From positions 1-64,000 of the forward strand of contig NZ_VJND01000011.1 of NCBI RefSeq assembly GCF_007556605.1: a stretch of DNA of 64,000 bases, in the 5' to 3' direction. The notes under the pieces were generated by a model, which was not told the DNA's origin, made no database searches, and was given only the letters and a program-made list of their open reading frames with translations. Position 1 is the stretch's first letter, and every line of letters begins with the position of its first letter. Position numbers and translations under genes: made by a program. Shown here in pieces: positions 3,608 to 61,014 of this stretch. The stretch is from Tepidimonas sediminis (GTDB lineage: Bacteria > Pseudomonadota > Gammaproteobacteria > Burkholderiales > Burkholderiaceae_C).

Positions 3608-4999
3608 ATGACGCCGTCGCCGTCGTCCGCCGCCGTCAGCCCCGCCGAGCCCGCCGCATGGCGCGTGGGGGCGCTGGTGGCCGCCGTGGCCGATGCGTTG
3701 CGGGCACGCTTCAACCCGGTGCGCGTCGTCGGCGAGGTGGCCGGCTGCAGCCGCGCCGCCAGCGGCCACGTCTACTTCGCGCTCAAGGACGAGGACGGTC
3801 AGCTGCGCTGCGCGATGTTCCGCCGCGCCGTCGAGGCCGCTGGCGGCGCCCTGCTGCGCGACGGCGCGCGCGTGGAGCTGGAGGGGCGGTTGGACGTGTA
3901 CGCGCCGCGCGGCGACCTGCAGCTGATCGTGGAGCGCGTGCGGCCGGCCGGGCAGGGCACCCTGTACGAGCAGTTCCTGCGCCTGAAGGAGGCGCTGGCG
4001 GCCGAAGGGCTGTTCGACGCCGCGCGCAAGCGGCCGCTGCCGCCCTTTCCGGCCAGCCTGGGCGTGGTCACCTCACCCGATGCGGCGGCGCTGCGCGACG
4101 TGGCCACGACGCTGAGGCGCCGCGTGCCACACCTGCCGGTGCGCCTGTATCCGTCGGCGGTGCAGGGCAGCGACGCGCCGGCCCAGCTGTGCGCGGCGCT
4201 GCGCCGGGCCTACCGCGACTTCGAGACGACCGGGGCGCCGCAGGTGCTGCTGCTGGTGCGCGGCGGCGGTTCGCTGGAGGACCTGTGGGCCTTCAACGAC
4301 GCCACGCTGGTGCGGACCATCGCGCAGGCGCCGATGCCGGTGATCTGCGGGGTCGGACACGAGACCGACTTCACGCTGGCGGATTTCGTCGCCGACCTGC
4401 GCGCCCCCACGCCGACGGCCGCCGCCGAGCTGTGCGCGCCGGCGCGCGTCGACCTGCTGGCCGAGCTGGCGCTGTGCCAGCGCCGCCTGCGCGAGGCGGC
4501 CTGGCGCCGGCTGGACGAGCGCGCGCAGCGGCTGGACCGGATGGTCCAGCGGCTGGGCCGGCCGTCGCAGCGCGTGGCCCGGCAGCAGCAGGTCCTGCAG
4601 GCGCTGCAGCATCGCCTGCGCCATGCGCTGGCGCTGGCGCTGCAGCATCAGCGCCAGCGCACCGAGGCGTGCGCCCAGCGCGCCGGGCCGCTGCTGCTGG
4701 CGGCGCTGCGGCAGCGGCGGCTGGCGCTGCTGGGCCTGGCCGGACGGCTGCCGCGCGCCGTGGCGCTGGCGCTGCAGCGCGAGCAGGCGCGCCTGCAGCG
4801 GGCGCAGGCCCAGGTGGCGCTGCTGGATCCGCAGCGCGTGCTGGAGCGCGGCTACGCGCTCGTCACCGATGCCGCCGGCCACGTGGTGACCGAGGCCGCG
4901 GCGCTGCGCCCCGGGCAGGCGCTGCACGTGCGCGTGGCGCGCGGCGCGTTCGAGGCCGCGGTCACGCGTCCGGGGTCGCCCGGCGCCGGGCGACGCTGA
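3608..4999 (+). CDS. xseA: Exodeoxyribonuclease VII large subunit
   Basis: The large subunit of exonuclease VII, which degrades single-stranded DNA from both ends with the small subunit XseB (not in the window). The 463-residue protein has the N-terminal OB fold (about residues 30–110, with VRVVGEVAGCSRAASGHVYF), the catalytic core with GVVTSPDAAALRDV and VRGGGSLEDLWAFND near residue 216, then GHETDFTLADFVADLRAPTP, and a long Leu/Gln/Arg-rich coiled coil (about 290–410). Length matches the family (about 450). The start is the ATG followed by a Ser/Pro-rich leader; a later start is conceivable because these first 15 residues are not conserved. Confidence 0.95.
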   Translation: MTPSPSSAAVSPAEPAAWRVGALVAAVADALRARFNPVRVVGEVAGCSRAASGHVYFALKDEDGQLRCAMFRRAVEAAGGALLRDGARVELEGRLDVYAPRGDLQLIVERVRPAGQGTLYEQFLRLKEALAAEGLFDAARKRPLPPFPASLGVVTSPDAAALRDVATTLRRRVPHLPVRLYPSAVQGSDAPAQLCAALRRAYRDFETTGAPQVLLLVRGGGSLEDLWAFNDATLVRTIAQAPMPVICGVGHETDFTLADFVADLRAPTPTAAAELCAPARVDLLAELALCQRRLREAAWRRLDERAQRLDRMVQRLGRPSQRVARQQQVLQALQHRLRHALALALQHQRQRTEACAQRAGPLLLAALRQRRLALLGLAGRLPRAVALALQREQARLQRAQAQVALLDPQRVLERGYALVTDAAGHVVTEAAALRPGQALHVRVARGAFEAAVTRPGSPGAGRR

Positions 5000-53331: not shown

Positions 53332-54249
53332 ATGCGCCGCCGCCTTCCCACCCTGCAGGCCCTGCAATGCTTCGAGGCCGCCGCACGCCACCAGAGCTTT
53401 TCGCGCGCGGCGCAGGAGCTGGCGCTGACGCAGGGGGCGGTGTCACGCCAGGTGGCGGGGCTGGAGGGCATGCTCGGCGTCAAGCTGTTTCGCCGCACGC
53501 AGCACGGCATGGCCCTGACCCCGGCGGGGGCGGATTACGCGCGGCAGGTCCGCCTGCGACTGGAGGCGCTGGAGCGCGACACGGTCGACCTGATGGCCCG
53601 CCGCGGTCAGGGTGACAGCGTCACGCTGGCCACCGTGCCGACGTTTGCCACGCGCTGGCTGATTCCGCGCCTGCCGCGGCTGGCGGCGCGCCACCCGCAG
53701 CTGCTGGTGCACCTGGAGACGCGCACGCGCCCGTTCCTGTTCCTCGACAGCGGACTGGAGGCGGCGCTGTGGGCCGGCACGCCCGCGCAGCTGCGCCAAT
53801 GGGCCGGCACGCGTGCCACGCGCCTGCTGGACGAGGAGGTGCTGCCGGTGTGCAGCCCGCGGCTGCTGCCCCACGGGCAGCCGGTGCCGCCGCAGGAACT
53901 GGTCGGCCTGCCGTTGCTGCAGCAGTCCACCCGGCCCGACGCCTGGCGGCGCTGGTTCGAGGCGCAGGGTGTGGAGGCGCCGCACGCGATGGCCGGGCCG
54001 CGCTACGAGCTGTTCTCCATGCAGGCCGCAGCGGCCATCGCCGGGCTGGGCGTGGCGCTGATGCCGACCCTGCTGGTGCAGCAGGAGCTGGCCCGCGGCG
54101 AGCTGGTGGTGGCGTGCGCCGCGCCGCTGCGCGGCGAGCGCGCCTACTACCTGGTGCAACCCGACGGGCCCGAGCGCGAGGCGCTGGCGCGCCTGCGCGC
54201 GTGGCTGGTGGAGGAGTGCGCCGCCGCGGCCCGCTCGCCGCCGGGGTGA
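53332..54249 (+). CDS. LysR family transcriptional regulator
   Basis: A 305-residue regulator with an N-terminal winged helix-turn-helix (TLQALQCFEAAARHQSFSRAAQELALTQGAVSRQVAGLE, residues about 7–45, shown here in parts) and a C-terminal inducer domain (about 90–300: LATVPTFATRWLIPRLPRL, VCSPRLLPHG, SMQAAAAIAGLGVALMPTLL). The GcvA-like subgroup has this style. Its divergence from gcdH suggests control of glutarate genes (GcdR-like). ATG 53332 follows GCTTGATCC, so the ribosome-binding site is weak. Confidence 0.9.
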   Translation: MRRRLPTLQALQCFEAAARHQSFSRAAQELALTQGAVSRQVAGLEGMLGVKLFRRTQHGMALTPAGADYARQVRLRLEALERDTVDLMARRGQGDSVTLATVPTFATRWLIPRLPRLAARHPQLLVHLETRTRPFLFLDSGLEAALWAGTPAQLRQWAGTRATRLLDEEVLPVCSPRLLPHGQPVPPQELVGLPLLQQSTRPDAWRRWFEAQGVEAPHAMAGPRYELFSMQAAAAIAGLGVALMPTLLVQQELARGELVVACAAPLRGERAYYLVQPDGPEREALARLRAWLVEECAAAARSPPG

Positions 54250-54252
54250 GTC

Positions 54253-54299
54253 ATCATCCTTGCAAATCTGGAGTTGTGCTCCATAATTGCAAGGATGAT
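54253..54299. repeat. 13-bp inverted repeat spanning the start codon of the DUF4143 ATPase gene
   Basis: ATCATCCTTGCAA (54253–54265) and TTGCAAGGATGAT (54287–54299) are exact inverted copies. Inside them TGGAG (54269–54273) pairs with CTCCA (54279–54283) around loop TTGTG. The right arm contains the ATG (54295–54297) and the AAGG of the ATPase gene, so an RNA hairpin would hide its start. No target-site duplication is seen. Confidence 0.6.
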
Positions 54300-55473
54300 C
54301 GAGCGACGGCTGTTGCGTGAAGTGTTGTTGGCGCTGGATGAGGCCCCGGCGGTGGCCTTGCTGGGGCCACGGCAGGCGGGCAAAACCACCTTGGCGCTGG
54401 AAGTGGCGGCGCGCCGACCGGCGGTGTATCTCGATTTGGAGTCGGAGGTCGATCGGGCCAAGCTGAGCGATCCGGCGCTCTACCTGTCGGCTCACGAGGA
54501 CAAGTTGGTCATTCTGGATGAGGTGCAACGTACTCCCGAGCTGTTTCGCACGCTGCGCGGTCTGATCGATCAGGGGCGACGCCGGGGCCAAGGGACGGGA
54601 CGCTTTCTGGTGTTGGGCTCGGCCTCGATCGAGCTGCTTCGGCAATCCAGCGAGTCGCTGGCCGGGCGGATCCGCTACCTGGAACTCGGGCCGCTGGACG
54701 CAGGGGAGGTGGGATCAGGGCGGTTGCAAGCCCTTTGGCTGCGTGGGGGCTTTCCCTTGAGCCTGTTGGCTGCCTCCGATGCGGCCAGCCTGCGCTGGCG
54801 GCTTGACTTTATTCGCACCTACCTGGAGCGCGACATCCCGCAGCTGGGCCCGCGCATTCCGGCGGAGACCCTGCGCCGTTTCTGGACCATGCTGGCCCAC
54901 CAGCAAGGGGCTTTGCTCAACGCGGCCGCGTTGGCGCGCGCCTTGGCGGTCGATGGCAAGACCGTGGCGCGCTACCTCGACCTGCTGGTGGATCTGCTGC
55001 TGGTGCGGCGGCTGCCGCCGTGGTCGCACAACGTGGGCAAGCGGCTGGTCAAGTCACCCAAGGTGTATGTGCGCGACAGCGGGTTGGTGCACGCGCTGCT
55101 GGGCATTGCCGACCACGAGGCGCTGCTGGCGCACCCCGTGGCCGGGGCGAGTTGGGAGGGCATGGTCATCGAGTCCCTGTTGGCGGCCGCCCCCGCGGGC
55201 ACGCAGGCGTCGTTTTTCCGCACCGCGGCGGGGGCGGAAATCGACTTGCTGCTGGAGCTGCCAGGCCATGCAGCGCCATGGGCTGTTGAAATCAAGCGAA
55301 GTTCGGCGCCGAAACTGGAGCGAGGGTTTTATGCCGGACTGCAGGCCGTGCAACCCGAGCGGGCCTGGGTGGTGTATGCCGGAAGCGAGCGCTTCGCGCT
55401 GGCCCCGGGCGTGGAGGCGATGCCGCTGCCCGAAGCCGTGCGGCTGTTGGCTGACCGTGACCCGGGCGAATGA
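54295..55473 (+). CDS. ATPase with DUF4143 domain
   Basis: A 392-residue P-loop protein: MIERRLLREVLLALDEAPAV, Walker A LLGPRQAGKTTLALEVA near residue 22, Walker B KLVILDEVQRTPELFRTLRG near 72, sensor FLVLGSASIELLRQSSESLAGR, and C-terminal DUF4143 (about 195–360) with SPKVYVRDSGLVHALLG, WEGMVIESLL, and FFRTAAGAEIDLLLEL plus VEIKRSS, a PD-(D/E)XK-like arrangement. Function unknown. Its codon use (many TTG, GTT) and lower G+C differ from neighbours, hinting at recent transfer. Unusual start inside a long inverted repeat. Confidence 0.88.
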   Translation: MIERRLLREVLLALDEAPAVALLGPRQAGKTTLALEVAARRPAVYLDLESEVDRAKLSDPALYLSAHEDKLVILDEVQRTPELFRTLRGLIDQGRRRGQGTGRFLVLGSASIELLRQSSESLAGRIRYLELGPLDAGEVGSGRLQALWLRGGFPLSLLAASDAASLRWRLDFIRTYLERDIPQLGPRIPAETLRRFWTMLAHQQGALLNAAALARALAVDGKTVARYLDLLVDLLLVRRLPPWSHNVGKRLVKSPKVYVRDSGLVHALLGIADHEALLAHPVAGASWEGMVIESLLAAAPAGTQASFFRTAAGAEIDLLLELPGHAAPWAVEIKRSSAPKLERGFYAGLQAVQPERAWVVYAGSERFALAPGVEAMPLPEAVRLLADRDPGE

Positions 55474-55500: not shown

Positions 55501-56811
55501 TCAACCCTTCGCCGCCGCCAGCGCCGCCTCCATGATCGCCAGCCCTTCGTCGAGCAGCGCGTCGCTGGCCGTCAGTGGCACCAGGATGCGGATCACGTTG
55601 CCGTAAAGCCCGCAGGACAGCAGCACCAGCCCGCGCTGCAGCGCCTCGGCGCACAGGCGCCGCGTCAGCTCGGCGGCGGGGCGGGTGAGGTCGCCGCCCT
55701 CGAACAGCTCGATGGCCACCATGGCCCCCAGGCCCCGCACGTCGCGGATCTCGGCATGGCGCGCCATCATCGCGGTCAGCCCCGCGCGCAGCCGCTCGCC
55801 GATGGCGCGGCTGCGCTCCAGCAGCCGCTCCTCCTCGAACACATCCAGCACCGCCAGTGCCGCCGCGCACGCCAGCGGATGCCCGGCGTAGGTGCCGCCC
55901 AGCCCGCCCGGTGGCACCTTGTCCATCAGCTCGGCGCGGCCGATGACGGCGGAGATCGGAAAGCCGCCCGCCATGCTCTTGGCCATCGTGACCATGTCCG
56001 GCGCCACGCCCCACTGCTCGCAGGCCAGCCAGGTGCCGGTGCGGCCGGCGCCGGTCTGCACCTCGTCGGCGATGAAGACGATGCCGTGCTCGTCGCACAG
56101 CCGGCGCAGTGCGCGCGCGAACTCGAACGGCGCGACGTAGAAGCCCCCTTCGCCCTGCACCGGCTCCAGGATGATGGCGGCCACGCGCTGCGGCTCGATG
56201 TCGTACTTGAAGAGGTGCTGCAGGCTGCGCAGCGCGTCGTCCACCGTCACGCCGTGCAGCGCGTTGGGGTATTCGGCGTGATAGACCTCGGCCGGAAACG
56301 GCCCGAAGCCTGCCTTGTAGGGTGCGACCTTGCCGGTCAGCGCCATGCCCAGCAGCGTGCGGCCATGGAAGCCGCCGCCGAAGGCGATGACCGCCTGCCG
56401 GCCGGTGGCGGCGCGCGCGATCTTGACGGCGTTTTCCACCGCCTCGGCGCCGGTGGAGAGGAAGAACGCCTTCTTGGCGAAGTCGCCGGGCGTCCTGGCG
56501 ATCAGGCGCTCGGCCAGCTCGACGTAGGGTTCGTAGGCCAGCACCTGAAAGCAGGTGTGGTGCAGCTTGTCCAGCTGCGCCTTGACGGCCTCGACGATGC
56601 GCGGGTGGCGGTGGCCGGTGTTGAGCACCGCGATGCCGCCGGCGAAGTCGATGTAGCGGCGGCCCTCGACGTCCCAGACCTCGGCGCCTTCGGCGCGCTC
56701 GGCGAACACTTCATGCGTCTGGCCCAGCCCGGCGGGCAGCGCGGCGCGGCGGCGCGCCATCAGGGCGGCGTTGGTGCGGGAGGCGGCGGGCAGGTTCGGA
56801 TCACGGTGCAT
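55501..56811 (-). CDS. gabT: 4-aminobutyrate–2-oxoglutarate transaminase
   Basis: PLP enzyme that turns GABA and 2-oxoglutarate into succinate semialdehyde and glutamate. The 436-residue class III aminotransferase has IDFAGGIAVLNTGHRHPRIV near residue 52, STGAEAVENAVKIAR near 110 (phosphate binding), EPVQGEGGFYVAP, FIADEVQTGAGRTG near 240 and the PLP lysine in TMAKSMAGGFPISAV near 270. All these are typical of GabT. AGGAGAGA precedes the ATG. Divergent from the MocR-type gene across a shared operator; its product feeds gabD. Confidence 0.95.
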   Translation of the reverse strand: MHRDPNLPAASRTNAALMARRRAALPAGLGQTHEVFAERAEGAEVWDVEGRRYIDFAGGIAVLNTGHRHPRIVEAVKAQLDKLHHTCFQVLAYEPYVELAERLIARTPGDFAKKAFFLSTGAEAVENAVKIARAATGRQAVIAFGGGFHGRTLLGMALTGKVAPYKAGFGPFPAEVYHAEYPNALHGVTVDDALRSLQHLFKYDIEPQRVAAIILEPVQGEGGFYVAPFEFARALRRLCDEHGIVFIADEVQTGAGRTGTWLACEQWGVAPDMVTMAKSMAGGFPISAVIGRAELMDKVPPGGLGGTYAGHPLACAAALAVLDVFEEERLLERSRAIGERLRAGLTAMMARHAEIRDVRGLGAMVAIELFEGGDLTRPAAELTRRLCAEALQRGLVLLSCGLYGNVIRILVPLTASDALLDEGLAIMEAALAAAKG

Positions 56812-60981: not shown

Positions 60982-61014
60982 GCCGCGCCGGGCCCGCGGA
61001 CGGCCCGGCGCGGC
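60982..61014 (-). terminator. 13-bp hairpin between dnaK and dnaJ
   Basis: GCCGCGCCGGGCC and GGCCCGGCGCGGC form an uninterrupted 13-bp stem with a 7-base loop. On the minus (transcribed) strand it is followed by TTTCGTTC. It lies 26 bases past the dnaK stop, where partial termination would keep dnaJ below dnaK, or it may stabilise the dnaK message. Confidence 0.55.

Follow-up and report, generated by a model that had tools for sequence, protein, structure and literature searches.

An inverted repeat in Tepidimonas sediminis straddles the promoter of a gene for an AAA_14/DUF4143 protein and runs into its start codon. The repeat keeps a fixed geometry with the promoter, is retained with the gene in homologues, occurs in the genomes scanned only in front of genes of this family, and gives way in distant family members to repeats of other sequence. 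On balance we favor the view that the gene product binds its own palindrome and regulates itself, binding and repression being predicted from sequence; likelier still is some form of DNA site specific to the gene. The features of the locus, numbered within the window (the whole 64-kb stretch of DNA that was analyzed), are as follows.

53332-54249, + strand: LysR-type regulator gene, upstream and co-directional; left flank of the acquired unit
54253-54273, + strand: left arm of the inverted repeat, with half-site CCTTGCA (54258-54264) plus GGA (54270-54272); conserved columns in homologues -37 to -31 and -25 to -23
54260-54265, + strand: -35-like hexamer TTGCAA, from a promoter scan; inside the left arm
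54274-54278, + strand: 5-nt center of the repeat, within a weakly conserved stretch of homologues (about -22 to -16)
54279-54299, + strand: right arm of the inverted repeat, with half-site TCC (54280-54282) plus TGCAAGG (54288-54294), continuing into the start codon; conserved columns in homologues -15 to -13 and -7 to -1
54282-54287, + strand: -10-like hexamer CATAAT, 16 bp past the -35; mostly inside the right arm
54295-55473, + strand: AAA_14 and DUF4143 gene, PADLOC candidate PDC-S01, from profile matches, an AlphaFold model and structure comparison; AAA_14 at residues 18-139, winged helix at about 190-260, DUF4143 at 178-335, PD-(D/E)XK-like C-terminal domain at about 283-390
55501-56811, - strand: aminotransferase-like gene (named by eye), downstream and convergent; right flank

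The repeat, the promoter within it and the gene product

An earlier note on this DNA described two exact 13-base arms, ATCATCCTTGCAA (54253-54265) and TTGCAAGGATGAT (54287-54299), around a 21-base spacer with an inner 5-bp stem (TGGAG/CTCCA), and reading the sequence confirmed all of these. Taken as a single repeat, the structure has two 21-nt arms that are 90% complementary and lie 5 nt apart. When inverted repeats were scored (match +1, mismatch -2, loop of at most 24), it reached 15, the top score of all those in the window; ten block-shuffled copies of the window gave none of at least 15, and a mean of 2.2 of at least 12. (The runners-up, at 4624-4661 and 60982-61014, are GC-rich and score 13.) The same note placed both the ATG and its ribosome-binding bases in the right arm. 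The ATG (54295-54297) is indeed there, but AAGG abuts it with zero spacing and so makes a poor Shine-Dalgarno site.

A promoter scan of positions 54150-54400 returned a single sigma-70-like site, TTGCAA and CATAAT separated by 16 bp (0.0 in shuffles). Since its -10 hexamer ends 7 nt upstream of the ATG, the predicted transcription start falls on the ATG or next to it, and the native mRNA of the window gene is probably leaderless. This geometry was counted in 74 homologues, four of 78 having been dropped as having no start codon in the stretch used. In 68 of the 74 the start codon follows the -10 at a distance of 7 nt. The -35/-10 spacer measures 16 in 63 genes and 17 in nine; 61 have CATAAT or CATAAA as the -10, and 65 have TTGCAA or TTGCAT as the -35. 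Upstream conservation stops beyond about -39 and is low at the center of the repeat. The GGA/TCC boxes within the spacer rank with the best conserved positions, and the CC/GG ends of the repeat are also conserved, although a promoter requires neither.

The gene encodes a 392-residue protein that matches the Pfam profiles PF13635 (158.6 bits, cut-off 28.1) and PF13173 (87.7 bits, cut-off 27). It also matches the models of PDC-S01, a single-gene phage-defense candidate of PADLOC (best E 3.2e-90, PADLOC calling rules not being applied), any link to defense being putative. PDC-S01 is described as an ATPase fused to a PD-(D/E)XK domain and as the fourth most common defense across prokaryotes, in an account according to which most such candidates still await validation; the description of PDC-S01 given there mentions neither an operator nor regulation (PMC12988326).

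An AlphaFold model (pLDDT 84.3, pTM 0.85) contains an AAA+ domain, a predicted winged helix and a C-terminal alpha/beta domain; one relative has weak HTH matches at residues 226-272, below the Pfam cut-offs. Searching the sequences of solved structures with the window protein gave nothing useful, and Foldseek alone gave one match at E of at most 0.001 (1xmx); the AAA+ relatives came from re-examining its hits. Nearest over residues 1-270 are two archaeal AAA+ ATPases, PABY2304 (2qen, Z 12.6) and SSO1545 (2fna, Z 11.8), with sequence identity of 16-17% and a match that excludes the C-terminal nuclease-like domain. Other matches to the nucleotide-binding and winged-helix part include 7dfv (Z 10.9) and CED-4 (Z 10.7), and STAND/NLR ATPases in general (CED-4, Apaf-1, plant NLRs, Avs5) share this arrangement at Z of about 8-11; unlike them, the 392-residue window protein has no sensor repeats and carries its effector-like domain, which is nuclease-like, at the C terminus. 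This domain (residues about 243-389) resembles Can2 (Z 8.3), VC1899 (Z 7.9) and McrBC (Z 6.9), values near the background of the tool; the same holds for its likeness to Can2/Card1-type nuclease domains and McrC as a class (Z about 7-8), and the window protein has no CARF domain. In an alignment of 40 sequences E315 and K334 are invariant and D317 and E332 are present in at least 90%; by eye, these four residues may be assigned to a PD-(D/E)XK active-site motif. An EhD plus ExK pair lies within the last 160 residues in 236 of 274 family genes. The protein would accordingly combine a small AAA+ ATPase of STAND-like type, winged helix included, with a domain resembling PD-(D/E)XK nucleases.

Retention of the repeat and transfer of the gene

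The earlier note proposed looking for the repeat upstream of orthologous ATPase genes, and it is retained there. A scan of public genomes, from which the best 80 of 548 relatives were kept, gave genes of 65-98% identity, the 98% one being in Tepidimonas alkaliphilus, on contigs labeled as many bacterial groups (many are metagenome bins, whose taxonomic labels may be wrong). The same block ends at the start codon in nearly all of these 80. It is degraded in L017 and L036, and L013, L025 and L078 depart from the pattern if the listed start position is taken. A gapless fit to the block directly before the start was found in 68 of 78 distinct homologues at least 60% identical to the window gene. 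The main-clade homologues are related to one another, and counts within the clade are thus not independent events.

The converse question, whether the repeat always precedes a DUF4143 gene, was put to genomes of the phylum. Among 398 Pseudomonadota genomes the motif (at most two mismatches) occurs in five, every site being directly before a family gene, whereas a reversed-pattern control had none among the matches listed for the same 398; in the window genome the site is present once. The half-site CCTTGCAW occurs 80 times in the repeat windows of 71 genes and 13 times in the rest of 446 kb, where equal base frequencies would give about 27. In viral contigs a relaxed motif was found in five. 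It precedes a family gene in three of these (L270-L272, the last ending at the contig edge). Two near-identical contigs (L378 3567-3603, L379 2979-3015) have a close palindrome match within a coding sequence of a phage, and neither contig yielded a family gene; the setting looks like what we take to be a T4-type replication cluster. A phage decoy was considered for these two, but the motif in coding sequence is probably a coincidence. L381 (2511-2543) carries a less exact form of the main-clade palindrome.

The gene itself has clearly been transferred, in line with the earlier suggestion of a transferred unit. Homologues 77-81% identical lie on contigs assigned to several phyla (among the best 80 of 548 relatives), and within the genus the family gene is patchily present. 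Its codon use departs from that of its neighbors much as had been noted, at least in outline (GC3 0.81, against 0.88-0.94 in four neighboring genes). One same-genus genome (G002) has gene and repeat at the equivalent place. Another (G009, locus L117, reverse complement, about 2415-2480) has lost the gene body but still has the repeat and the opening codons, the -10 of this remnant being CATCAT in place of CATAAT. The LysR and aminotransferase genes are joined directly in G001 and G004, and via unrelated DNA in G006. At these three empty sites, a comparison that the earlier note had called for, there is no repeat and, by eye and across diverged flanks, no target duplication, and so no sign of a mobile end. 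Elsewhere in the genus the same gap holds a YoeB-like toxin gene (PF06769, G010) or a CcdB-like gene (PF01845, G005); G007 and G008 had no downstream match within the stretch read. Such varied contents mark the gap as a site for small cargo. Nor did the DNA past the gene give any sign that the repeat is the end of a mobile unit, for no conserved 3' counterpart was found: the half-site core occurs in one of 69 downstream 150-nt stretches, and the 7-mers that these share are only GC-rich.

Some main-clade copies have type I restriction neighbors, HsdM upstream in L012 and a fragment matching EcoEI_R_C downstream in L029, and by eye L011, L020, L021 and L063 have similar DNA downstream. A gene for a phage-integrase-type recombinase adjoins the family gene in L067 (PF00589) and in six other Rhizobiales-type loci.

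Other repeats in distant relatives and paralogues

Distant members were examined in a first set of 193 distinct family genes, using the 210 nt upstream of the Walker A motif; 21 family ORFs without a Walker-A pattern, duplicates, and genes with less than 210 nt upstream were left out, and a second set was filtered in like manner. An inverted repeat scoring at least 10 was found in 79 of the 193 genes, compared with 0.84% of 11,580 dinucleotide shuffles. Taking one representative per cluster at 50% identity, the counts were 25/64 for the family and 36/420 for control genes of the same loci (Fisher p 3e-9); this control rate is overstated, since six of the 15 control windows scoring at least 12 hold, by eye, the same palindromes read from the divergent neighbor. 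The second set came from two other phyla and was picked after the first result (centers G208, with a Spirochaetales label, and G211, with a Chloroflexi label). Here 43/81 genes had such a repeat, as did 32/58 representatives of new clusters against 4/60 controls (p 5e-9). The palindromes of distant members are mostly unrelated to that of the window, for instance AAGCTTGTATTTTGAGCGAT-C-ATCGCTCAAAATACAAGCTT (L096), CATTTTGCTATTTTAATATT-C-AATATTAAAATAGCAAAATG (L104) and GACATCATTTGACAGATTGTAAGTT-G-AACTTACAATCTGTCAAATGATGTC (L171).

Some members have direct repeats. Among the 96 outside the main clade whose inverted repeats score below 9, direct repeats of at least 10 were present in 20, against 17/488 controls, and of at least 15 in 11, against 1/488; the periods are mostly 32-33 (10 genes) and 46 (four genes). 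The feature is not universal, for 76 of these 96 have neither an inverted repeat of at least 9 nor a direct repeat of at least 10. Certain high-scoring repeats (L332, L347) resemble terminators of upstream genes. Of eight named plasmid loci only two have an inverted repeat of at least 10, those of Moraxella bovis (21) and Runella slithyformis (18). The Dinoroseobacter locus (CCTTGCAA-N15-TTGCAAGG) and that of Emticicia score 8, with values of 5-6 for Thermus HB8, Marinobacter and Subdoligranulum. At the HB27 locus the repeat, of score 8, sits in apparent coding sequence; the gene there is shortened at the N terminus and may not be TT_P0211 (see below).

Outside the main clade 29 of 87 genes have no such promoter, and in 42 of the other 58 the inverted repeat overlaps a promoter hexamer. 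This exceeds uniform placement (mean 27.7, maximum 41 in 1000) but not the 41.3 obtained when repeat positions were swapped among genes. A gene-by-gene fit of repeat to promoter was accordingly set aside, a shared position near the start explaining the overlap equally well. That distant relatives have repeats of their own, different but at the same place, suggests that each protein recognizes and controls its own promoter.

Paralogues within one genome mostly differ in their repeats (e.g. G507, G530, G181, G505), which argues against a single host regulator. In G507, where 12 genes were examined, six have palindromes of at least 10 and four have direct repeats of period 33. The words differ, except that TTGGCAAAT is common to L330 and L331, and the direct repeats (L334, L338, L339, L342; 20-27 nt, period 33 bp) have a separate word for each paralogue. 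L227 and L245 of G212 share a single intergenic site as their palindrome. The numbers of DUF4143 matches per genome (27 in G507, 23 in G212, 17 in G181) indicate large expansions within single cells. The window genome has two more, a divergent full-length copy (L002) and a 194-aa fragment (L003); no palindrome was found upstream of L002. No recurrent neighbor gene emerged at 80 loci, the largest neighbor group comprising seven, so that the gene itself is the simplest candidate for the factor traveling with the site.

Which part of the protein might recognize the site was examined by comparing half-site similarity with protein identity over 45 genes. Correlations were 0.39-0.41 (rho) for the whole protein, the AAA domain and the winged helix, and 0.31 for the recognition-helix region. 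The corresponding partial correlations were 0.07 for the winged helix (54/500 permutations as high), 0.11 for the recognition-helix region (7/500), 0.12 for the nuclease (16/500) and 0.12 for the AAA domain (25/500). Over these 45 genes, no domain, the winged helix included, stands out as the DNA recognizer. Winged helices of STAND proteins frequently have no part in DNA binding.

Readings of the repeat and their meaning for the family

Whatever recognizes the repeat must travel with the gene, differ among paralogues and act at the promoter. Only the gene product always travels, and a cognate operator is thus the most economical reading. The earlier note had raised an autoregulatory operator as one possibility, and the comparisons speak for it: the promoter that the repeat spans keeps a constant layout, and in distant relatives its place is taken by other palindromes or by phased direct repeats. 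We propose that the repeat serves the gene as a DNA operator within its promoter; the operator half-sites, CCTTGCA-N5-GGA and TCC-N5-TGCAAGG, would enclose and contain the -35 and -10. Transcription would start at the ATG or one base upstream, giving a leaderless mRNA. The AAA+/winged-helix/nuclease-like protein would bind the palindrome as a dimer or higher oligomer and hold its own promoter low, and repression would be relieved once an invader, for instance, engages the protein or uses it up. With a separate word for each family lineage, paralogues in one cell need not cross-regulate.

A host-encoded regulator, rather than the gene product, could also be what the palindrome serves, since any repressor would use an operator placed over a promoter. 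We think this unlikely, because the same site accompanies the gene into contigs assigned to different phyla, and because of the differing repeats of paralogues and the lack of a recurring neighbor described above. About equally improbable is a site for recombination, transposition or nuclease recognition, whether as a terminus of a mobile unit or as what the encoded nuclease targets. The gene has moved about in the course of evolution and occupies a cargo site in the genus, the protein has conserved PD-(D/E)XK-like residues, and the G009 remnant retains the repeat without the gene body. However, there is no conserved sequence past the stop codon, the empty sites show neither repeat nor duplication, and such a site would not require fixed spacing to the -35, the -10 and the ATG.

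The earlier note's other proposal, that in RNA the repeat would block initiation, is not favored. A hairpin in the 5' region would hide the start codon and make translation less efficient, if only for transcripts that read through from upstream genes. The gene does lie close behind the co-directional LysR gene, the ATG does fall within the right arm, and the RNA of 54247-54330 is predicted to fold strongly (-34.5 kcal/mol, z -4.9). Against this, with the conserved -10 ending so near the start codon, the native transcript would lack the left arm. In 67 distinct main-clade blocks, moreover, the pairs at -37 to -23 (802 Watson-Crick, 23 G-U, 180 other) are close to what is expected if the paired columns are independent (799, 24 and 182). 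There is thus neither covariation nor a G-U excess in these 67 blocks, and what is conserved in the arms is a pair of similar sequences rather than a stem that covaries. Outside the main clade, where start codons are estimates, the inverted repeat touches the start in only 14 of 87 genes and ends at least 5 nt upstream in 64, and some members carry direct repeats, which are unable to form such a hairpin. We rate this explanation a little below the two preceding ones, though the hairpin may still act on read-through RNA. Least probable is that the palindrome is a mere by-product of the conserved promoter, for TTGCAA and CATAAT account for part of the conservation but not for the GGA/TCC boxes and CC/GG ends, nor for symmetry kept in distant members despite unrelated sequences.

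An autoregulatory operator has parallels among defense genes. Toxin-antitoxin operators, restriction C proteins and HTH methyltransferases that repress their own promoters are all cases of autoregulation. The likeness lies in a palindrome over the gene's own promoter and in the mobility of the genes; the difference is that the regulator there is the antitoxin, C protein or methyltransferase, not a single AAA+/nuclease protein. We know of no anti-phage activity of the window gene. An ATPase likened to SSO1545, IniR of mycobacteria, reportedly binds a promoter and switches on transcription (PMC5760070); it differs in having 818 residues and a separate C-terminal DNA-binding domain, and in activating another operon. 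In Thermus the DUF4143 gene TT_P0211 is reported to rise 6.6-fold with plasmid, only when Argonaute is present (PMC4406477). In the literature searched on DUF4143, PF13635, AAA_14, PDC-S01, SSO1545 and antiphage autorepression, most subscription journals lying outside the search, the palindrome is undescribed.

PDC-S01 is among the commonest defense candidates of bacteria and archaea, with function unproven (PMC12988326). A lineage-specific promoter site would offer a testable handle on it, as a biochemical ligand and as a means to induce or silence the gene, and the family may provide natural protein-DNA pairs for learning the recognition rules of a STAND-like winged helix. More tentatively, and with rather less confidence than we place in self-binding, the AAA_14/DUF4143 (PDC-S01) family could be a very large set of self-addressed defense ATPase-nucleases, in which every lineage marks its promoter with a private DNA word, either a palindrome or a direct repeat with a phasing of about 23 or 32-33 bp. 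While parked there the protein would be repressed, and perhaps inactive; displacement by an invader protein or competing DNA would induce the gene and free the enzyme, and fast divergence of the words would prevent interference among up to dozens of paralogues per cell.
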